Part shown: piece by piece, positions 9,695 to 19,414 of the stretch
Numbering within the stretch: the first letter of the stretch is position 1
Layout of the letters: each line of letters starts with the position of its first letter
Assembly (NCBI RefSeq): GCF_009707955.1
Contig: NZ_WMDQ01000003.1
Coordinates: 124,001-188,000 of the forward strand
Direction: 5' to 3'
From: Flavobacterium sp. LC2016-13
Lineage (GTDB): Bacteria; Bacteroidota; Bacteroidia; Flavobacteriales; Flavobacteriaceae
Length of the DNA: 64,000 nt
The notes under the pieces: model-generated
Databases searched by the model: none
Seen by the model: only the letters and a program-made list of their open reading frames with translations
Told to the model about the DNA's origin: nothing
Made by a program: the position numbers and the translations under genes

Positions 9695-10264
9695 TCAATC
9701 GTTAACTTCAGGCGCAGGAACATCAAAACCGTTTAGTACCGTGGCAAGCAAAACATAAGCTCCTATCAGAAATATAAGTTCTGCAATTCCTTCACTTCCT
9801 AATAATTTTTCGGCATGTGCATAAGCAGAGTCTGAAATGATTCGTTTGTTTGCCAATACTTGTGCAATTTCATAGGCAACGGCTTCTTCTGCGTTTAATT
9901 CATAAGGTCGAAAGCCAGAAGTTAGTGATGCAATTTCAGCTTGGGAAAAACCAAAATGATGTGCCATAATTTCGTGAGCATACAATTCGAAACGTGCACC
10001 AAAAGCGGCACCAACTGTAAGAATTGCAACTTCGCGAACTTTCTTTGGAAGCGTTGCGTGAGAATCTAACGAACGAACAAAACTCAAAGCAGGAATTCCA
10101 AATTGAGGAAAATGAAGCATTGGCGGGAAAGGCCCAATCAATGCTCCTTCTTCATTTAGCATTTTAACGGGACCTTGACTTCGTGTAATAAGATTTACTA
10201 CTTCATCATGCACATAACGAACTTCTTGATTCATTTTTTCCGGGTGAAAGGGAACTATTCTCAT
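9695..10264 (-). CDS. Carboxymuconolactone decarboxylase (CMD) family protein
   Basis: A 189-residue all-helical protein with the CMD/AhpD-like core KKVREVAILTVGAAFGARFE and ELYAHEIMAHHFGFSQAEI, then the second helical pair (EEAVAYEIAQVLANKRI, AELIFLIGAYVLLATVLNGF). The CxxC pair of AhpD is absent, so it is not a disulfide peroxidase-type member. It is closest in layout to 4-carboxymuconolactone decarboxylase-like proteins that act on ring-cleavage products, but the true substrate is unknown. It is the last gene of a three-gene cassette: 2TM protein, cupin (18 bp upstream), CMD. Confidence 0.85.
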   Translation of the reverse strand: MRIVPFHPEKMNQEVRYVHDEVVNLITRSQGPVKMLNEEGALIGPFPPMLHFPQFGIPALSFVRSLDSHATLPKKVREVAILTVGAAFGARFELYAHEIMAHHFGFSQAEIASLTSGFRPYELNAEEAVAYEIAQVLANKRIISDSAYAHAEKLLGSEGIAELIFLIGAYVLLATVLNGFDVPAPEVND

Positions 10265-10282: not shown

Positions 10283-10852
10283 TTAAAGAAGACTTTCATC
10301 AAAACGACCATCTATTAATATAAATGCTACGCGGCAATTTTTTCCTGATCTGTTCGCCCACGCATGGTTTGTACCACGCTGAATAATAATATCTCCGGCA
10401 TTGATTGTTCTTTCGCCACGATCGACGATCAATGTTAGTTCGCCTTCAAGCACAATTCCGTAATCTATCGTTTCAGTGCGGTGCATTAACGGATGTGCCG
10501 CATCCTGACCTGCTTTTGAAGCCTCCTCTCCTCCCATTGACTTAAAGTGTTTGTTGGCTTCATCTTTGGTAAGATTTCGAATTTCTTCGCCTTCCGGTGG
10601 AAAATCAATAACTCTAATGCGTGTTCCGCCTTTAGGTGGCCCTAATACAAGATTATTTTCCTGTGGTTCTTCTAAATTGTTATCAATTAGTGCTGGTGAT
10701 TGTTGTGTGTTCCAAACTTCGTGAAACTTTGCTCCTTTTGGTCCGCCAATCATATAAGTACGTTCCGGAGCTGCATCTGAAATAATAATTGCTTTACCAT
10801 CTGCATCATGACCTGTAACAATACGTCTGAATGCTTTTTGATTTGTTTCCAT
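10283..10852 (-). CDS. Cupin-domain protein
   Basis: A 189-residue cupin. The conserved barrel lies at about 120-185: HRTETIDYGIVLEGELTLI, GERTINAGDIIIQRG, then TNHAWANRSGKNCRVAFI. His and Glu in HRTETIDY plus His in TNHAW would form the metal site. The N-terminal half contains a second beta-rich segment (RTYMIGGPKGAKFHEVWNT). Such cupins may act as dioxygenases or isomerases or bind a small acid. It is translated between the 2TM gene (2 bp away) and the CMD gene (18 bp away), pointing to a shared pathway on a small, possibly aromatic, compound. Soluble; no signal peptide. Confidence 0.85.
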   Translation of the reverse strand: METNQKAFRRIVTGHDADGKAIIISDAAPERTYMIGGPKGAKFHEVWNTQQSPALIDNNLEEPQENNLVLGPPKGGTRIRVIDFPPEGEEIRNLTKDEANKHFKSMGGEEASKAGQDAAHPLMHRTETIDYGIVLEGELTLIVDRGERTINAGDIIIQRGTNHAWANRSGKNCRVAFILIDGRFDESLL

Positions 10853-10854
10853 GA

Positions 10855-11085
10855 TTACAAAGTTTTATGTTGTTTTTTATTAAATACAAATACACCTAAA
10901 TAATGAAAAAGTATTCCGATTGCCCATGCTGGTGTAGACCAAAGTGGCCAAGGATAAGTAGTGTCTGTTAAATACCAAACAATCCAGATTACGGGAGTGG
11001 TAAGTAAAAATACAAGTAAATGAATTCGAAATCCTTTTTTGGGATTTGTTCTGGCTGTTGTGTCAGCATTAAATGTTGTTTTCAT
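10855..11085 (-). CDS. Small 2TM-domain membrane protein (cassette A)
   Basis: A 76-residue protein matching the 2TM domain seen fused to LytTR/histidine-kinase proteins but here free-standing: a basic N-terminus (KKGFRIHLLVF), a first membrane helix, a loop LTDTTYPWPLWSTPAWAIG, a second helix (FHYLGVFVF) and a basic tail. The gene at 14938-15159 is a close paralogue with the same loop. Both are the first gene behind almost identical promoters, so the protein is probably expressed with each detoxification cassette. It may act as a small membrane anchor or sensor partner. The cupin start follows after 2 bp. Confidence 0.85.
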   Translation of the reverse strand: MKTTFNADTTARTNPKKGFRIHLLVFLLTTPVIWIVWYLTDTTYPWPLWSTPAWAIGILFHYLGVFVFNKKQHKTL

Positions 11086-11130: not shown

Positions 11131-11214
11131 GTAAAAGCTTGTTTTTCAACCTTTTTACATAGCAAAGATAAAAACACAATCTCTTAAAAATCATTGACTT
11201 TGGTTAAGAACGAT
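11131..11214 (-). promoter_or_regulatory. Cassette A promoter with inverted-repeat operator and 5' hairpin
   Basis: On the minus strand the -7 box is TATCTTTG (plus-strand CAAAGATA, 11163-11170). Nineteen bases upstream is an inverted repeat ATCATT (11190-11195) ... AACGAT (11209-11214) embedded in a 31-bp stretch (11185-11215) that differs at one position from 15264-15294. The operator replaces a normal -33 TTTG, which suggests an activator-dependent promoter. Near the start of the leader a hairpin (GTAAAA 11131-11136 with TTTTAC 11153-11158) can form. The divergent Crp/Fnr gene at 11302 is the obvious candidate regulator. Confidence 0.7.
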
Positions 11215-11301
11215 GTATAAATTTTGGTGTAACGAAATAATTATTTTGCTATTTATCAGGATTAAAACTAATTTTAAAGTGGTTATTTTAAATTCACTTT
11301 T

Positions 11302-11877
11302 ATGGATCAGTTTAAAACCGTTATCACGTCGTTTGTTCCTATGTCTGATGAAGAATTTGACTTAGTTTTACCTATCATCAATAGAGCAACGATAAAAAAA
11401 GACACCAATCTTTTAGAACAAGGACAAGTGTGCCAGCATGTTTACTTTGTAGAAAGCGGTTTTTTCAGAATGTTTTATGTTGATTTAAAAGGAAATGAAA
11501 TCAACAGCAGGTTTGTAAAGTCCGATGACTTTATGGTTGATTTTGCGAGTTTTATTACCAAAAAGGCCTCCCTCTATTATTGGAAGGCCATGGAAGATTC
11601 TAAAGTAATCGTATTGGAACACGAAGATGTTGAAAAACTTTATAATAAATCACCCGCATGGGCAAAATTTGGCAGGCTTATAGCCGAGTTTGGGTATCTT
11701 CTAATTATTGAACGACAGGAAATACTTCATTTTCAAACTCCTGAAGAACGATACAAAACCATTCTCAAAAAACAACCGGAACTTTTTCAATTGGTTTCTC
11801 AAAATCATCTCGCCTCTTATATCGGTATCAAACCAGAATCCTTAAGCCGACTTCGTAAAAGAATGATAGGGAAATAA
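11302..11877 (+). CDS. Crp/Fnr-type transcriptional regulator (divergent to cassette A)
   Basis: A 191-residue regulator with a cNMP-binding-like barrel (DTNLLEQGQVCQHVYFVESG, FFRMFYVDLKGNEINSRF) and a helix-turn-helix (LASYIGIKPESLSRLRK). The barrel lacks the GE...R(S/T)A phosphate cassette; the corresponding region reads DFMVDFASFITKKASLYYW. It is divergent from the 2TM/cupin/CMD operon and separated by 216 bp holding the shared inverted-repeat operator, the usual arrangement for a local regulator. Ligand unknown. Confidence in family is high; in target, moderate. Confidence 0.88.
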   Translation: MDQFKTVITSFVPMSDEEFDLVLPIINRATIKKDTNLLEQGQVCQHVYFVESGFFRMFYVDLKGNEINSRFVKSDDFMVDFASFITKKASLYYWKAMEDSKVIVLEHEDVEKLYNKSPAWAKFGRLIAEFGYLLIIERQEILHFQTPEERYKTILKKQPELFQLVSQNHLASYIGIKPESLSRLRKRMIGK

Positions 11878-11878
11878 A

Positions 11879-11965
11879 ATTATGAATTATGAGTTGCTAT
11901 GCGAATGTTTTACTTTAACTCTGAACTTCAAATTCATAACTTATAACTCATAATTTATAATTCAT
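11879..11965. repeat. AT-only inverted/direct repeat cluster between convergent genes
   Basis: Contains AATTATGAATTATGAG near the left end and degenerate inverted copies (AACTCATAATTTATAATTC) near the right end, capable of an imperfect hairpin. It shares a 17-mer with 6934-6990 and the AATTCAT unit with 46108-46155. It may act as a weak bidirectional terminator. Confidence 0.4.
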
Positions 11966-11968
11966 AAC

Positions 11969-13063
11969 TTAATTATAAGTTTTCCAATCTGTATATCCGT
12001 GATTGCCTAAACCATAATGCAAATCACGATTTGGCGGTGTCAATTCCCAATTATTCTGCAAGCGTTCTACTAAATCCGGATTGGATATAAAAGGTTCACC
12101 AAATCCTGCAATATCGATAGTTCCGGCATTGATCAGTTTTTCAGATTTTTCTCTGTCCATACTTCCTGCAAGAATAATTACACCCTTATACCAAGTACGG
12201 AAACGTTCTATAAAACCTTCAGGTAAAGCGTGACTTCCTTTAGACTGCTGATCCATAAGATGAATGTATACAATATCTCTTTTTTCTAATTCTTTTGCCA
12301 GATATTCATAAGTAGCTTCTATCTCGTCATAATGTGGTAAATCACCCAAACCTCCATAAGGAGTAAGCCTGATACCAACTTTATCTTTCCCAACCGCTTT
12401 TATTGAGGCATCAACAGCTTCTAATAAAAACCTTGAACGGTTTTCAATACTTCCGCCATATTCATCGGTACGTGTGTTTACAAACGGATTTAAAAATTGT
12501 TCAATCAAATAACCGTTTGCTCCGTGCAGTTCTACGCCATCAAAACCGGCTTCAATTGCGTTTTTGGCAGCATTGGCAAAATCTTTTACAACATCTTTAA
12601 CATCAGTTGTAGAAAGCGCTCTGGGTTTTGAAGAAATTACAAAACCTTCATTTCCATTTTCATCAAATCCCCACGCAAAAGAACTCGAAGCCTGAATATC
12701 AGATGGTCCCACAGGAGCGATTCCATTTGGTTGATTTGACGTATGCGATACTCTTCCCACATGCCATAATTGTGTAAATATAGTTCCGCCTTTTTGGTGC
12801 ACAGCATGCGTTACTTTTTTCCAGCCTTCTACTTGCTCTGCCGTGTATAAACCCGGAATATACAATACTCCTTTTGCAGTGTCTGAAATAGCAGTTCCTT
12901 CAGTAATAATCAATCCTGCAGCTGCGCGTTGTGCATAATATAAAGCATTGTTCTCGTTCGGAATTCCATCCTCATTTCTTGCTCTTGTCATTGGCGCCAT
13001 AGAAATGCGGTTTTTTAATTGTAAAGAACCAATACGTGCTGGTTCAAAAATATTCTTTTTCAT
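11969..13063 (-). CDS. Old Yellow Enzyme-type alkene reductase (cassette B)
   Basis: A 364-residue FMN TIM barrel: N-terminal LKNRISMAPMTRARN, TEGTAISDTAKG, the WHVGRVSH segment, the active-site HGANGYLIEQFLNPF (His and Asn for carbonyl binding, Tyr as proton donor), then TRTDEYGGSIENRSRFLLE, and VDIAGFGEPFISNPD-like FMN phosphate site near the end. It reduces activated C=C bonds of enones, maleimides or nitro compounds using NAD(P)H. No signal peptide, so cytoplasmic. It is the fourth gene on this strand after 2TM, monooxygenase and PfpI genes. A second enzyme of this type is at 32289-33395, so the two likely differ in substrate or induction. Confidence 0.94.
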   Translation of the reverse strand: MKKNIFEPARIGSLQLKNRISMAPMTRARNEDGIPNENNALYYAQRAAAGLIITEGTAISDTAKGVLYIPGLYTAEQVEGWKKVTHAVHQKGGTIFTQLWHVGRVSHTSNQPNGIAPVGPSDIQASSSFAWGFDENGNEGFVISSKPRALSTTDVKDVVKDFANAAKNAIEAGFDGVELHGANGYLIEQFLNPFVNTRTDEYGGSIENRSRFLLEAVDASIKAVGKDKVGIRLTPYGGLGDLPHYDEIEATYEYLAKELEKRDIVYIHLMDQQSKGSHALPEGFIERFRTWYKGVIILAGSMDREKSEKLINAGTIDIAGFGEPFISNPDLVERLQNNWELTPPNRDLHYGLGNHGYTDWKTYN

Positions 13064-13104
13064 ACGTTTTAATCAAATTTTAATCTTCATTTTTTGTGGT
13101 TTTT

Positions 13105-13140
13105 GATAACGGGAAACAGAAATTCTAATCTCCCGTTATC
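13105..13140. other. Intercistronic hairpin without T-tract
   Basis: GATAACGGGA (13105-13114) and TCCCGTTATC (13131-13140) are perfect 10-bp arms with a 16-nt loop between the PfpI and alkene reductase genes. There is no T-run on either strand, so it may be an mRNA processing or stability element that lowers reductase expression rather than a full terminator. Confidence 0.5.
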
Positions 13141-13179
13141 ATAAAACCTGTTTTAGTTCTTCTGTATTTTCGAACTAAA

Positions 13180-13995
13180 TTATTTTTTTGCAATCCAGCT
13201 TTCTACAGCTCTCGAAAAATCTGCAACATCAATTGGGTGTCTGCTTGTTATTATGTTACCATCAACAACTACAGGTACATCAGATACAATTCCTCCTGCA
13301 TTAGTCAAATCGCTTTGAATATTCCAATATCCGGTAAGTTTTCTTCCTTTAAGAATATCTGCAGAAGCAAGAACAACGGGCGCATGACAAATAGCGGCAA
13401 TAAGTTTTCCTGATTTATTAAAATCCTGAATAAATTTAATAACATCTTTATCATAGCGAAGGTTATCAGGATTCCATGCTCCACCGGGAATAAATACAGC
13501 ATCATACTCGTTTACCTTTATTTGGTCTGCAGTACGGTCTACTTTTATCCATCCCACAGGTTGTAAATACTGTATGGCCATAATGTGATCTTTTGCCATT
13601 TCCGGCGCACTTAAACCATATCTTGCAGGAGCCGGATTGTATTTTGGAGCAACAATATCAACCTGAGCGCCAAGTTCTCTAAAATACCACACTGGTCCTG
13701 TTAGTTCTATTTCTTCAAAACCATCTGCAGCAATTACTGCAATTCTTTTTCCTTTTAAAACCGTTCTGTCTTTTACAGGAGTAAAAAAGAAATCTCTCAT
13801 AGCTTCATTTCCCGGTGCATTCAATAACTGAGATACCGGCATAACCGATGCTACAGTTGGTGTAGACAATTTGTTGATCACATCCAGTTTATGATCGATC
13901 ACATTTTCAGCTTTAACTCTAACCTGAGCATCTGAATTAAATACGGCAAGCATCATCATTGTGCCTGCAAGAGCAATTTGTTTTAAATTTTTCAT
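13180..13995 (-). CDS. Exported DJ-1/PfpI family protein
   Basis: A 271-residue protein with a signal peptide (MKNLKQIALAGTMMMLAVF, cleavage near SDA). The DJ-1/PfpI domain follows from about 83: GKRIAVIAADGFEEIELTGP (conserved Glu about 95) and, at the nucleophile elbow, AAICHAPVVLA (Cys about 203, His 204). Family members act as glyoxalase III/deglycases or chaperone-proteases; which applies here is unknown. Periplasmic placement is unusual for glyoxalase-type members. It lies between the exported monooxygenase-like gene (24 bp) and the alkene reductase gene, suggesting a joint role against reactive carbonyls. Confidence 0.88.
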   Translation of the reverse strand: MKNLKQIALAGTMMMLAVFNSDAQVRVKAENVIDHKLDVINKLSTPTVASVMPVSQLLNAPGNEAMRDFFFTPVKDRTVLKGKRIAVIAADGFEEIELTGPVWYFRELGAQVDIVAPKYNPAPARYGLSAPEMAKDHIMAIQYLQPVGWIKVDRTADQIKVNEYDAVFIPGGAWNPDNLRYDKDVIKFIQDFNKSGKLIAAICHAPVVLASADILKGRKLTGYWNIQSDLTNAGGIVSDVPVVVDGNIITSRHPIDVADFSRAVESWIAKK

Positions 13996-14019
13996 TTTTT
14001 TAAGTTTTAGATTATTTAT

Positions 14020-14778
14020 TTATTCGCGTGTTAGCGGGGCAAATTCTATTAGATTGTGTAGGCCATTTTGAAATGGAGGATTTTGTGTACCGGTTTCTAA
14101 ATATTCGATTACGGGTTTTATAGGCGGAAATCTAAGATGGTACTGGAATGCATCATTGCTTCTGAATTTTTCGTAGGTAACAAATTGGGTTTCGTTTCCT
14201 TCAATTTCCGAAAGCTGATAAGTTACAACTCCGGGCTCACTGCGAAATTCAGGCATTGCTTTATGATACGTGTTTTTAAAATATTGCTGTGTACCTTTTT
14301 TAGCATCAACAAATAAAATTACAATTAGCTGATTATCTTCTTTCTTTGCTGTTTTGCGCCATTGCTCTTTTGTAAGAGGCTCAAGATCTTTAAGATAATA
14401 GGATTTTGAAGACTTAACAAGTGCTGTTTTTTCTAATGAAAATAGTGCTTTTGCTTGTTTGCTTTTCGTAATATCTTTTAGCTGTTCTTTACTTGTCCAT
14501 CTTTCCATTAACCATAATACTGATGGTTTATCCTGCTCATAATGAGCTTCAGACATAATATTTCCTTCCTGAACTAAAGCTTGTGTAACGTAATCTGCCA
14601 AAACCTGGCGAAATTGTTTTTCATATCCTGCTTTAACTTCATACTTAGTTAATTTGGCAATCACTTCGTTGTTAGATAAATACTTCATTTCTTTTGCATG
14701 GCTTTGTGCCAGCATAAAAACTACTGCCGAAAACATTAAAGTTTTCCTGATAATTGATGATACTGATTTTGTTTTCAT
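14020..14778 (-). CDS. Exported protein with two antibiotic-biosynthesis-monooxygenase (ABM) domains
   Basis: A 252-residue protein with a signal peptide ending near LAQSHA. Two ferredoxin-like ABM repeats follow. Repeat one: KLTKYEVKAGYEKQFRQVL, then MSEAHYEQDKPSVLWLMERW. Repeat two: VILFVDAKKGTQQYF, then VVTYQLSEIEG and TYEKFRSNDAFQYHL. ABM domains occur in quinol monooxygenases (YgiN) and cofactor-free oxygenases; tandem exported forms are less common. Catalytic residues cannot be assigned by eye. The gene sits between the 2TM gene (159 bp upstream) and the PfpI gene, in cassette B. A role in oxidising or binding a quinone-like compound in the periplasm is an inference. Confidence 0.78.
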   Translation of the reverse strand: MKTKSVSSIIRKTLMFSAVVFMLAQSHAKEMKYLSNNEVIAKLTKYEVKAGYEKQFRQVLADYVTQALVQEGNIMSEAHYEQDKPSVLWLMERWTSKEQLKDITKSKQAKALFSLEKTALVKSSKSYYLKDLEPLTKEQWRKTAKKEDNQLIVILFVDAKKGTQQYFKNTYHKAMPEFRSEPGVVTYQLSEIEGNETQFVTYEKFRSNDAFQYHLRFPPIKPVIEYLETGTQNPPFQNGLHNLIEFAPLTRE

Positions 14779-14937
14779 AATGGTTGATTTTTAAAGTTTA
14801 TAAAGAATTTAGAAGCCCTTTTTAAGATCCTTAAAATGAACTTAATGACAAGACAAATTTCTAAACTTGACACGTCAAAAAGATTGACGGCGGTCACTAT
14901 TAAAATGTGATTCAAATCACTTTTTAGCGAATGTGAT

Positions 14938-15159
14938 TTATGCTCTTTGCTTTTTAAAAACAAATGCACCTAAATAATGAAATAAGATTCCCAAAGCCCA
15001 TGCAGGTGTTGACCAAAGCGGCCACGGATAAGTTGTATCGGTTAAATACCAGATTAACCAAATTGCCGGAGCAATCAGTAAGAATACTAAAAAGTGAATT
15101 TTGAATCCTAACTTTACATTTTGAGGTGTTGTTGCAGCACCATTAAAATTTCGTTTCAT
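14938..15159 (-). CDS. Small 2TM-domain membrane protein (cassette B)
   Basis: A 73-residue paralogue of the protein at 10855-11085. It has the same design: basic start (KLGFKIHFLVF), helix one, loop LTDTTYPWPLWSTPAWALG, helix two (FHYLGAFVF), basic end (KKQRA). The central loop is almost unchanged, so Trp, Pro and Asp there are probably functional. As in cassette A it is the first gene after a promoter with the shared operator. Its stop is 159 bp before the ABM gene, so the downstream genes may also have their own promoter. Confidence 0.85.
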   Translation of the reverse strand: MKRNFNGAATTPQNVKLGFKIHFLVFLLIAPAIWLIWYLTDTTYPWPLWSTPAWALGILFHYLGAFVFKKQRA

Positions 15160-15195
15160 GACTTAATGATTTAATTGTTACTAATGTTTCATAAA

Positions 15196-15293
15196 AACCT
15201 AAAATCGAAAACTAACTTTCCGTTTTAGGTTATTACCATGGCAAAAGTAAAATCGCAATCAGCTAAAAATCATTGACTTTGGTTAAGAATGAT
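15196..15293 (-). promoter_or_regulatory. Cassette B promoter with inverted-repeat operator and 5' hairpin
   Basis: On the minus strand the -7 box is TACTTTTG (plus-strand CAAAAGTA, 15242-15249). Nineteen bases upstream lies the perfect inverted repeat ATCATT (15269-15274) ... AATGAT (15288-15293), inside a 31-bp block (15264-15294) matching cassette A at all but one base. A 9-bp hairpin, AACCTAAAA (15196-15204) with TTTTAGGTT (15223-15231), forms at the very start of the transcript. The same three-part design occurs at 11131-11214. Confidence 0.72.
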
Positions 15294-15408
15294 GATCGAG
15301 GGTTTTCTATACCAATTTTTGTAGAGATAATTTAAATTGGAAGAAGTATAAAGATAATTATAAAATTAAAAACTTTTATTCGCTGTTACAGGCAAACAAA
15401 AGCATAAA

Positions 15409-15453: not shown

Positions 15454-16023
15454 TTAATGGCTATTTGAATAAAGCCTGCTTAACGTTTCCCGCGAAACGC
15501 CCAGATATTCTGCTATATATTTTTTAGGCACTTTTTGCATGATATTGGGATAAAGATTACCAAATTCTTCATACCGTTGTTTCGGATTTCCTGATAGCAA
15601 TGAAATAATCCTGCGTTGTTGTGCGGCATAACCACTGGTTAGTTTCATCCTGAAAAAATGCTCCATTTTGTGAAGTTCTGATGCTAATTTTTCTCTCGCC
15701 GTTAAAGTCAGACAAAACACTTCAGCATCTTCCATGCAAACAATATTAATTTTAGATTCTGCCTGATTAAAAAAAGCATTATAGTCTGATAGCCACCAGT
15801 TTTCGAGCGCAAACTGCACAATATATTCTTTGCCTTCATTGTCGAGATAAAAAGCCCTGAAAACGCCTTTCGCAATCCAGTATTCGCAAGTCACATTATC
15901 ACCTTGCTGAATAAGATATTGATGTTTTTTTACTTTCTTTTCTGTAAAAAACGTTTTAATATAATCAAACTCTTCATTACTTACCGGACTGATTTCTTCA
16001 ATATGTTTTCGTAGTTTATCCAT
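15454..16023 (-). CDS. Crp/Fnr-type transcriptional regulator
   Basis: A 189-residue regulator: barrel with KKHQYLIQQGDNVTCEYWIA, the segment QFALENWWLSDYNAFF in place of the cAMP phosphate cassette, and a C-terminal helix-turn-helix (KYIAEYLGVSRETLSRLY). The ENWW.SD signature is shared with the regulator at 20519-21097, so the two form a subgroup distinct from the other three in this window. It lies upstream of cassette B on the same strand but ends at its own terminator, so it is transcribed separately. It is divergent from the aldo/keto reductase genes and could control either side. Confidence 0.87.
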   Translation of the reverse strand: MDKLRKHIEEISPVSNEEFDYIKTFFTEKKVKKHQYLIQQGDNVTCEYWIAKGVFRAFYLDNEGKEYIVQFALENWWLSDYNAFFNQAESKINIVCMEDAEVFCLTLTAREKLASELHKMEHFFRMKLTSGYAAQQRRIISLLSGNPKQRYEEFGNLYPNIMQKVPKKYIAEYLGVSRETLSRLYSNSH

Positions 16024-16208
16024 CTATAGTATTTTCAAACTCTTTTAAGATTACGAGTTTAAAGTTAAGTAAAAACAATTAATGAATAAATTTTGTCTTT
16101 TAAATGCCTTTTATTGACAAATTACTTTTAGTACCTTTAAATCATAAAAAAATCTTTATGATACAACGCTTAATTCCTTCTTCCTGAGAAGAACTGCCTG
16201 TTATAGGA

Positions 16209-16976
16209 TTGGGAACCTGGCAAACTTTTGATACCTCAAATAAGGAAAAACATTTGCAGCTTACAGCCGTTTTGGGCGAAATGCAAAAATCAGGCGCAAA
16301 ACTCATAGACAGTTCTCCCATGTATGGGAAATCAGAAAAAGTAATTGGAGAACTCACTCCATCAATTGAGAATCATAACGACTTTTTTTATGCCACGAAA
16401 GTCTGGACAACGGGCTTAAAATCAGGAATTGAACAAATGGAAAAATCAATGCGTTTGATGCAACGTCAATCTATTGATTTAATGCAGATTCATAATCTAA
16501 AAGATTGGAAAACCCATATTAAAACATTGCGTGAATGGAAAGAAATTGGTAAAATAAAATACATCGGAATCACACATTATACCGATTCGATGCATGAAGA
16601 TCTGGAGAAAATCATTAAAAGTGAAAAAATAGATTTCGTACAATTTAATTATTCCATAGAAGATCGAAATGCCGAAAAAAGTTTGTTCGCCACCGCGGCA
16701 GATCACGGTGTTGCTACGCTTATAAATCGTCCTTTTGGCGAAGGTCGTTTATTTAAAAAAGTACGAGGGAAAGCACTACCGGAATGGGCAATTGAAAACG
16801 GAATTGATAATTGGAGTAACTTCTTTTTACAATATATTATAGCAAATCCGGCAGTTACCTGCGTAATTCCAGCAACTTCAAATCCGTTGCATGCAACAGA
16901 TAATTTTAATGCAGGAAAGGTTATTATTGATGAAAATCTAAAAGAAAAAATGGTGGGTTATCTCACTCATTTATAA
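16209..16976 (+). CDS. Aldo/keto reductase with an in-frame stop near its natural start (possibly broken)
   Basis: The body is a typical aldo/keto reductase: tetrad residues are visible in LIDSSPMYGKSE (Asp, Tyr), FFYATKVWTTG (Lys) and LMQIHNLKDWKTH (His). The expected N-terminus is encoded upstream, from ATG 16158 (MIQRLIPSS), but a TGA at 16185-16187 interrupts it before EELPVIGLGTWQ. The only in-frame start after the stop and before the conserved Trp is TTG at 16209, which would lose the first beta strand. The gene may be a recent pseudogene, may be expressed weakly from TTG, or the stop may be a sequencing error. It precedes a second aldo/keto reductase by 49 bp. Confidence 0.7.
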   Translation: MGTWQTFDTSNKEKHLQLTAVLGEMQKSGAKLIDSSPMYGKSEKVIGELTPSIENHNDFFYATKVWTTGLKSGIEQMEKSMRLMQRQSIDLMQIHNLKDWKTHIKTLREWKEIGKIKYIGITHYTDSMHEDLEKIIKSEKIDFVQFNYSIEDRNAEKSLFATAADHGVATLINRPFGEGRLFKKVRGKALPEWAIENGIDNWSNFFLQYIIANPAVTCVIPATSNPLHATDNFNAGKVIIDENLKEKMVGYLTHL

Positions 16977-18074: not shown

Positions 18075-18659
18075 ATGAGCAAAGAAGCTATAGTCCTATA
18101 TCTTAAAAGTACAAATCTGATTTCATTAGATGTTGCAGTAGAAATAGCCAATCATTTTGAAAGCAAACTTATACTGAAAAATCAAAAGATACTTGAAGAA
18201 GGAATGGTTTCTGATGAATACCTTTTTCTCGAAAAAGGATTTATGCGTTCATTTGCTCATGATACCGAAGGAAATGAAGTAACTACAAATTTCTATTCTC
18301 CTGGGGATGTGATTTTTGAAGTTGCTTCCTTTTTTAATCGAACAAAATCAAAAGAAAATATTCAGGCTCTCACAGATTGTGAAGCCTGGTATATTACCTA
18401 TGAACAATTAAATGATTTATTTCATGCTTTACCGGAATTCAGAGAATTTGGAAGATCTATACTCGTCAAAGGCTTTTCCGGACTAAAAATCAGAATGCTT
18501 TCTATGATTACAGAAACGGCTGAAGAGCGTTATATTTATTTATTAAAAGCCAATCCTGAAATTTTTCAGCAAGCTTCTTTAAAAAATATTGCTTCGTTTC
18601 TTGGCATTACAGATACATCTTTAAGCAGAATCAGAAAAGAGCTTTCAAAAAAGCACTAA
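18075..18659 (+). CDS. Crp/Fnr-type transcriptional regulator
   Basis: A 194-residue regulator. I place the start at ATG 18075 (MSKEAIVLYLK), 11 bp after the aldo/keto reductase stop; an upstream ATG at 18006 would overlap that gene by 58 bp. The barrel contains KNQKILEEGMVSDEYLFLEK and FYSPGDVIFEVASFFN; the helix-turn-helix is IASFLGITDTSLSRIRK. The GD-E segment is closer to a normal nucleotide cassette than in its paralogues, but the Arg-Ser/Thr pair is still absent. Genetic linkage suggests it regulates the aldo/keto reductase operon and perhaps the following membrane gene. Confidence 0.87.
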   Translation: MSKEAIVLYLKSTNLISLDVAVEIANHFESKLILKNQKILEEGMVSDEYLFLEKGFMRSFAHDTEGNEVTTNFYSPGDVIFEVASFFNRTKSKENIQALTDCEAWYITYEQLNDLFHALPEFREFGRSILVKGFSGLKIRMLSMITETAEERYIYLLKANPEIFQQASLKNIASFLGITDTSLSRIRKELSKKH

Positions 18660-18736
18660 CATTTTCATTTCTTGCCATTTGCTAAGATTATTCCATTGCA
18701 TAATATATTCCTTTGTTTAACTAAAAAATAAACAAA

Positions 18737-19414
18737 ATGGATACTTTACCACTTTACATCGCTTTGGTTTTTGGAGTTACACTTCTAACCTCAATTGTTC
18801 TTTTTTATAAAGCAACACATTTCTCTAAGACAGTTTTAGCCGTAATTCTTTTGTGGATTATTGTACAATCAATTATCAGCTTAACCGGTTTTTATAAAAC
18901 TGAAAACACATCGCCACCACGTTTTGCCTTATTATTAATGCCGCCTTTACTAACTATTATTTTACTTTTTATTACAGAAAAAGGAAAGCAGTTTATTGAT
19001 GGTTTAAATATTAAAATACTTACGATTATTCACATTATCAGAATACCTGTAGAATTGGTTTTATTCTGGCTTTTTATGCAGAAAGCTATTCCGGAATTAA
19101 TGACTTTTGAAGGTAGGAATTTTGATATCGTATCCGGAATTTCAGCACCACTTGTCTATTATTTCACTTTCGTGAAAAAGAAAACCAATACCAAATTTTT
19201 ATTAATATGGAATTTCATTTGTCTGGCTTTAGTGATTAATATTGCTATTAATGCTGTTTTGTCTTTATCAACACGATTTCAGCAATTTGCTTTTGATCAG
19301 CCAAATGTTGCTCTCTTAGAATTTCCGTTTACGCTGCTGCCAGCGGTTTTAGTGCCAATTGTTGTTTTCTCGCATTTAGTTTCCATCAGACAATTATTAT
19401 CTGAAAAAGATTAA
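18737..19414 (+). CDS. Integral membrane protein of unknown function (about 7 TM)
   Basis: A 225-residue hydrophobic protein with about seven membrane segments (e.g. YIALVFGVTLLTSIVLFY, LLMPPLLTIILLFITE, FPFTLLPAVLVPIVVF). There is no recognisable catalytic motif. A short polar loop carries a conserved-looking TFEGRNFDIVSG, and the C-terminus is charged (SIRQLLSEKD). I do not recognise a named family. Its position 77 bp after a Crp/Fnr gene and 147 bp before a hydrolase suggests a link to the stress region. Transport and signalling are both possible. Confidence 0.7.
   Translation: MDTLPLYIALVFGVTLLTSIVLFYKATHFSKTVLAVILLWIIVQSIISLTGFYKTENTSPPRFALLLMPPLLTIILLFITEKGKQFIDGLNIKILTIIHIIRIPVELVLFWLFMQKAIPELMTFEGRNFDIVSGISAPLVYYFTFVKKKTNTKFLLIWNFICLALVINIAINAVLSLSTRFQQFAFDQPNVALLEFPFTLLPAVLVPIVVFSHLVSIRQLLSEKD

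Follow-up and report, generated by a model that had tools for sequence, protein, structure and literature searches.

At class II promoters that depend on Crp/Fnr proteins, the activator site lies at or near -41.5. FNR binds at this position to a site of the TTGAY type, the DNA being read by its ExxSR residues, and Crp/Fnr proteins can also repress. Some Bacteroidota have many such regulators, few of which, to our knowledge, have mapped targets. CrpPg of Porphyromonas gingivalis is reported to bind DNA without a ligand (PMC12040651), and a study of Flavobacterium psychrophilum places the TAnnTTTG box of its sigma-A promoters at -12 to -5 (PMC9723704). The window analysed here is a stretch of 64,000 nucleotides from Flavobacterium sp. 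LC2016-13 (contig NZ_WMDQ01000003.1, positions 124,001 to 188,000, forward strand), in which two gene cassettes, A and B, share a promoter element and each lie beside a gene for a Crp/Fnr-like regulator, CRP_A and CRP_B, respectively. The conserved part of this element is an 18-mer, TTCTTAACCAAAGTCAAT, containing an FNR-like 5-4-5 dyad, TTAAC-CAAA-GTCAA. We propose, with a probability of slightly more than three in four, that the 18-mer is the operator through which CRP_A, CRP_B or both would switch on the two cassettes by FNR-like class II activation.

The original prediction, drawn from the letters of the window, was that in the two promoters a Crp/Fnr activator site replaces the contact at -33. 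Its description of the sequence was accurate: positions 11185-11215 and 15264-15294 are identical at 30 of 31 bases, both contain an inverted repeat ATCATT-N13-AATGAT (perfect in B, at 15269-15293, and with one mismatch in A, at 11190-11214), 19 bases separate this repeat from a TAnnTTTG box in each case, and the -33 region, as read from the sequence of these two promoters only, has no TTTG. Position, neighbourhood, helix type and the behaviour of other paralogs, described below, agree with an activator site, but the outer dyad turned out to be the wrong element. Among the 107 non-redundant contexts of the 18-mer that were listed, 2 retain the free bases of the outer arms exactly and 3 with at most one mismatch; it is the 18-mer with the inner dyad that is conserved. 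Loose matches to the outer repeat (up to two mismatches) are not enriched in the window either (18 against 13.2 expected, a number reached in 11 of 100 shuffles), and longer palindromes at other centres brought no clear gain, the free flanking bases having a mean complementarity of 0.28-0.45. The stem-loops that had been claimed at the predicted transcript starts can be folded in both promoters but are modest, and weak in A: -6.0 kcal/mol (z -2.1, equalled by 7 of 200 shuffles) in A and -16.4 kcal/mol (z -3.4, equalled by 2 of 200) in B. In its own genome the 17-mer TTGACTTTGGTTAAGAA has exact copies at the two window sites only; with two mismatches it is found at 9 places, against 12 for a reversed control pattern, and thus no wider regulon is visible there at this stringency.

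The 18-mer is, however, neither genus-confined nor bound to 2TM genes, as the idea of a Flavobacterium motif upstream of such genes would have it; this idea was correct as to conservation in relatives but too narrow. An exact scan of one genome per species in 84,980 species matched at least 117 stretches of up to 8 kb, which gave 119 different contexts, including the 107 non-redundant ones. By their titles, 78 of the 80 named stretches belong to Bacteroidota, the two others being an unplaced bacterium (L034) and a Paenibacillus (L079). Within the genus (199 genomes), ATTGACTTTGGTTAAGAA occurs with at most one mismatch at 36 places in 24 genomes, and the reversed pattern at 7; the variants TTCTTACCC and TTCTTGACC sit, at genus loci, where other Crp-like genes end (3′). 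When one half of the 18-mer was left free in a phylum-wide scan, 6 places emerged in 5 of 247 genomes, 5 of them with TTCTTAACC or TTCTTACCC in the free part; a second scan of this type gave 11 places in 8 of 247 genomes, 7 with the full TCAAT and 1 with TCAAC, while the remaining 3 look like chance matches. For each context the downstream gene was taken as the longest frame starting within 450 bases of the 18-mer, which undercounts short 2TM genes because the longest frame is chosen. This provided 110 proteins (9 of the 119 contexts had none, and 11 of the 110 lacked a box). Among the matches listed, DUF4386 (18), alcohol-dehydrogenase-like (16) and DUF6326 (12) proteins come first, followed by proteins with ABM (antibiotic biosynthesis monooxygenase) domains (9), cupins (6), DJ-1 (5) and beta-lactamase-like proteins (5). 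DUF4386 and DUF6326, which we take to be membrane proteins of unknown function, make up 30 of the 110 and are perhaps an echo of the 2TM proteins of the window.

This distribution bears on another account of the similarity, by which one promoter was recently copied along with the 2TM gene behind it and the match means nothing more. A small 2TM protein does come first in both cassettes, as had been noted (both match PF13239 and are 70% identical over 71 residues), and the flanks past the 18-mer are alike within this genome. But the 18-mer precedes unrelated genes (DUF4386, zinc-type dehydrogenases, DUF6326 and others) throughout the phylum and at a fixed spacing from the box. Spread and geometry refute copying as a full account, which we find hardly credible; it could explain the similarity of the flanks only.

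The distance between element and box is fixed. An exact TAnnTTTG starts 21 bases past the 18-mer in 52 of the 107 contexts and 22 bases past it in 20; if one mismatch is tolerated, the gap is 21 in 67 and 22 in 25, i.e. 92 of 107 together among the matches listed, and every other offset is found in at most 6. With the box at the published position, -12 to -5, gaps of 21 and 22 would centre the dyad at -41.5 (67 of these matches) and -42.5 (25 of them), respectively, the position of a class II activator. The same closeness to the promoter could also mean repression, the regulator at -42.5 blocking polymerase until an inducer frees it. The dyad abuts the promoter, and for CrpPg, from the same phylum, the authors of PMC12040651 suggest that it may be a repressor. 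Nevertheless, a repressor would need no exact spacing, and a fixed position of -41.5 or -42.5 combined with a missing -33 TTTG is the signature of class II activation; we consider repression unlikely.

The second line of evidence is the company that the 18-mer keeps. Of the 119 listed contexts, 64 have a Crp-like gene no more than 1.5 kb away, when about 2% would be expected by chance, an estimate based on the 34 PF00027 matches (33 of them over the cut-off) in the 5.9 Mb of the window's own genome. The nine other Flavobacteriaceae genomes sampled have 3 to 17 such matches. The 64 neighbours are placed upstream and codirectional (26), downstream and convergent (26) or upstream and divergent (12); one of the convergent cases, L088, is in fact a divergent CRP_A with an overlong frame call. 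Counted by locus as an internal control, a Crp neighbour accompanies 64 of the 102 contexts with a box and 1 of the 17 without. In five stretches (L046, L080, L102, L124, L130) the 18-mer starts within a few bases of the stop codon of the regulator, and the operator touches the coding end. Moreover, the neighbours are mostly of one kind: their recognition helix is ESLSR in 47, ETLSR in 10 and another in 5, none being found in 2. Helices of the E[ST]LSR type thus account for 57 of the 64, compared with 19 among 62 Crp proteins chosen independently of the motif (Fisher 1e-11).

Which of the two regulators acts where is a finer matter. In a tree of 118 rows, including 59 neighbours, CRP_A and CRP_B fall into separate, well-supported clades, and a third clade of 34 rows contains 33 other neighbours. 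It is therefore conceivable that the sites are Crp/Fnr operators, but with each regulator reserved for its own cassette, or one regulator serving both, the near-identity of the promoters reflecting ancestry and a common operator type. In the relatives seen, each regulator stays near its own site, and pairing of a regulator with an adjacent site is common among other paralogs. Against separate control, all 18 bases of the two operators agree and the two regulators have helices of the same E[ST]LSR type; to tell the sites apart they would have to make contacts outside the core. We regard this as a real but less probable possibility. The attempt to tell the regulators apart by absence failed, orthologs of both being present in all 7 genomes that have CRP_A: orthologs (each with at least 74% identity) occur together in 7 of the 8 genomes examined, and in the eighth, G146, CRP_A has no match at E 1e-30 and the matches of CRP_B are distant (at most 35% identity). 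The most likely arrangement, given these sequences, is activation of the cassettes by CRP_A and CRP_B, acting alone or together.

If the geometry is a property of the regulator family rather than of one motif, it should recur with other dyads, and it does. In 10 Flavobacteriaceae genomes, 97 PF00027 loci were searched, the 18-mer being excluded, for dyads with an internal gap of 0-10 whose distance upstream of an exact TAnnTTTG box was 15-49.5, i.e. 385 cells. The top cell, gap 4 at 29.5 from the box, held 14 dyads against a mean of 1.04 (sd 1.41), and the next three cells have the same centre; some of the 14 lie elsewhere than just after a crp gene. A post-stop-codon site was defined as a dyad in which no fewer than 4 of the 5 pairs match, followed by a box at a stated gap. 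With a gap of 22 such a site follows 20 of 62 complete Crp genes, with 23 it follows 6, and the other gaps give a mean of 1.69 and a maximum of 5. The hold-out sample, which drew on 12 other genomes of the class (40 stretches with 27 complete Crp genes), behaved likewise: 9 genes have the site at gap 22 and 1 at gap 23, the others giving a mean of 0.61 and a maximum of 2. After non-Crp genes, gap 22 was found in 8 of 208 (other gaps: mean 4.22, maximum 9), which differs from the hold-out value with a Fisher probability of 1.2e-5.

These paired sites also permit a look at recognition, with rules fixed before the hold-out sequences and counts that ignore shared descent. At gap 22, the third base of the downstream half-site is G in 8 of 8 cases where the helix begins with E, and in 0 of 9 where it begins with Q, V, I or R (p 4e-5); with gap 23 added, the figures are 9 of 10 and 1 of 13. 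In the hold-out, G was present for the four E helices having a gap-22 site (L271, L279, L293, L302), the other E helices having no site, and no gap-22 case occurred for the Q/V/I rule. One helix residue, E, thus tracks one base, the third G of the half-site. Two further rules were dropped. LSK helices went with A at the fifth base in the first set (3 of 3, against 0 of 17 otherwise), but in the hold-out the lone LSK helix (L272) had no site and the FSK helices of L274 and L278 lacked the A, so that K alone does not set it; and S or T at the first position, associated with TTGCC/TTGTC in 3 of 3 cases of the first set, was a misfit in L285, L274 and L278.

Several observations speak against our interpretation. 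The sites of the window are predicted at -42.5, one base away from the commonest spacing, and their upstream half-site, TTAAC, differs from the TTGAY expected for ExxSR, only the downstream half, TTGAC, fitting. A gap-22 site is missing after the stop codon of 42 of the 62 Crp genes and of 18 of the 27 in the hold-out. Seven of the 64 neighbours have no E[ST]LSR helix, a number that includes the two without any recognizable helix. Within one mismatch the element is present in only the 24 of 199 genus genomes mentioned above, and some of the 36 places there hold variants or lack a Crp gene in their 3-kb stretch. In the genomes examined, neither cassette was seen without the regulator of the other. 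Finally, no Crp gene lies within 1.5 kb in 55 of the 119 listed contexts (10 have one further off and 45 none in the stretch). This last point, and the fact that the 18-mer extends past its dyad, would also suit another factor, or an extended promoter element, for which Crp genes are merely common neighbours. Such an explanation is very unlikely in view of the dependence of the neighbourhood on the box, the enrichment of one helix type and the recurrence of the geometry with different dyads after other crp genes.

What the data establish, then, is a conserved operator-like element whose spacing from the promoter box is fixed, a neighbourhood of regulator genes enriched in one helix type, and a general rule backed by hold-out sequences. 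The mechanism we favour, class II activation, would run as follows. Dimers of the presumably wingless proteins CRP_A, CRP_B or both would bind the TTAAC-CAAA-GTCAA dyad; centred at about -42.5, they would make up for the lack of a -33 element and bring RNA polymerase to the TAnnTTTG boxes of both cassettes, the two regulators perhaps sharing the site in joint control. Predicted detoxification genes are the likely targets, and the purpose might be to respond to electrophiles such as reactive carbonyls or quinones, a guess prompted by the downstream enzymes. Beyond this locus, we think it rather probable that Bacteroidota use a modular switch language, in which expanded wingless Crp/Fnr paralogs have, in many cases, a class II operator of their own directly past the stop codon, with the -7 box of the gene that follows lying 22 bases further on, the letters of the operator being readable from a few helix residues; the 18-mer would be its most widespread word, used by several regulator lineages. 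If so, the targets of many paralogs could be read from sequence (a 5-4-5 dyad past the stop codon, 22 bases before TAnnTTTG), promoters without a -33 element would have a concrete activation geometry, and the small set of helix/half-site pairs would constitute a candidate recognition code.

The features of the window are collected in Table 1. Both the A-type and the B-type locus are present in three other Flavobacterium genomes (G053, G108, G118). The 2TM gene is kept at the A-type loci of five relatives (L015, L020, L021, L026, L029); at three B-type loci (L008, L014, L016) it is absent between CRP_B and the ABM gene, which the site directly precedes, and in L030 the B-type site precedes the DJ-1 gene. 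A third local Crp-like gene, CRP_C, is followed by a probable operator that was picked by eye with the rule already known and in which only 3 of 5 pairs are symmetric; 22 bases separate it from a -7-like box, TTCCTTTG, at 18708-18715, and the next gene is at 18737. Two relatives with the helix of CRP_C (L216, L246) have TTGCC/TTGTC half-sites. An aldo/keto-reductase-like frame at 16158-16976 (+) contains an in-frame TGA (16185-16187), the tenth codon after an upstream ATG, and either has a later start or is an interrupted gene.

Table 1. Features of the two cassettes and of the CRP_C locus (window positions)
Feature	Position	Strand	Remarks
Predicted operator A, 18-mer TTCTTAACCAAAGTCAAT	11193..11210	-	5-4-5 core TTAAC-CAAA-GTCAA at 11194-11207
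-7 box TATCTTTG, promoter A	11163..11170	-	22 bases past the 18-mer; predicted start near 11158
Weak stem-loop, predicted transcript start A	11131..11158	-	folding versus shuffles
Cassette A gene 1, 76-aa 2TM-domain protein	10855..11085	-	PF13239
Cassette A gene 2, cupin protein	10283..10852	-	PF07883
Cassette A gene 3, carboxymuconolactone-decarboxylase-like	9695..10264	-	PF02627, 22.9 bits versus cut-off 23
CRP_A, Crp/Fnr-like regulator, 191 aa, helix KPESLSR	11302..11877	+	PF00027; divergent from cassette A
Predicted operator B, 18-mer TTCTTAACCAAAGTCAAT	15272..15289	-	5-4-5 core at 15273-15286
-7 box TACTTTTG, promoter B	15242..15249	-	22 bases past the 18-mer; predicted start near 15237
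Stem-loop, predicted transcript start B	15190..15239	-	folding versus shuffles
Cassette B gene 1, 73-aa 2TM-domain protein	14938..15159	-	PF13239
Cassette B gene 2, ABM domains	14020..14778	-	PF03992
Cassette B gene 3, DJ-1/PfpI protein	13180..13995	-	PF01965; TIGR01382 above cut-off
Cassette B gene 4, old-yellow-enzyme, N-ethylmaleimide-reductase-like	11969..13063	-	PF00724; NF007899 394 bits, just below cut-off 403
CRP_B, Crp/Fnr-like regulator, helix SRETLSR	15454..16023	-	PF00027; upstream of and codirectional with cassette B
CRP_C, third local Crp-like gene, helix TDTSLSR	about 18075-18659	+
Probable CRP_C operator TTGCC-ATTT-GCTAA	18672..18685	+	just past the CRP_C stop codon

The regulators themselves are of the expected fold. 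PF00027, the N-terminal cNMP-binding domain, matches both CRP_A and CRP_B above the cut-off, and the structural model of CRP_A (pLDDT 95) matches FNR and CAP structures. In this model a long dimerization helix (118-144) is followed by a C-terminal helix-turn-helix (HTH) region (147-157, 161-164, 167-174, 178-190), and the recognition helix (178-190) closes the chain, with no wing behind it. The profile aligns through the FNR HTH; the Pfam HTH model is unmatched in CRP_A and below the cut-off in CRP_B. The ExxSR motif, aligned with Aliivibrio fischeri FNR, reads PESLSR in CRP_A and RETLSR in CRP_B; in our alignment A2, the invariance of E, L, S and R follows from the choice of its 52 fetched rows for E[ST]LSR. 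CRP_A has a single cysteine instead of the four of FNR, and therefore no FNR-type iron-sulphur cluster, and the Arg-Ser pair of the cAMP phosphate-binding cassette was not seen by eye in its stretch KKASLYYW. A cysteine-based sensor was considered and set aside: one cysteine is present in 42 of 54 aligned regulators and replaced by alanine in the 12 others, including CRP_A, so that no shared cysteine sensor can be deduced.

Searches of the literature did not bring up a description of this element: it does not appear in titles or the start of abstracts on Crp/Fnr in Bacteroidetes or Flavobacterium, most subscription papers being outside the search, and motif strings matched 14 papers, none of which concerns bacterial promoters by title. 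The main text on CrpPg (PMC12040651) does not contain the term 'class II', and that of PMC9723704 contains none of the terms Crp, Fnr and palindrom. CrpPg, HcpR and PgRsp of P. gingivalis are likewise Crp/Fnr regulators of Bacteroidota, and the F. psychrophilum sigma-A promoters have the TAnnTTTG box in common with those of the window. The nearest solved structures to CRP_A are 3dn7 and A. fischeri FNR. The former, a cyclic nucleotide binding regulatory protein of Cytophaga hutchinsonii, is the closest solved relative (profile E 1.4e-53 over 189 positions, and also by fold); it is likewise short, with 194 residues, but differs in its helix, PEYLSE instead of E[ST]LSR. With FNR of E. coli and A. 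fischeri the system shares a TTGAY-type 5-4-5 dyad, an ExxSR helix and a predicted centre near -41.5. Unlike FNR, CRP_A has a single cysteine and is wingless in its model, the partner box is the TAnnTTTG of Bacteroidota, and the regulator gene frequently adjoins the site. Class II activation as such is known from FNR and CRP; what would differ here is its use by wingless proteins, at a Bacteroidota promoter, from an operator placed, in many paralogs, after the regulator's stop codon and with one 18-mer recurring across regulator clades.

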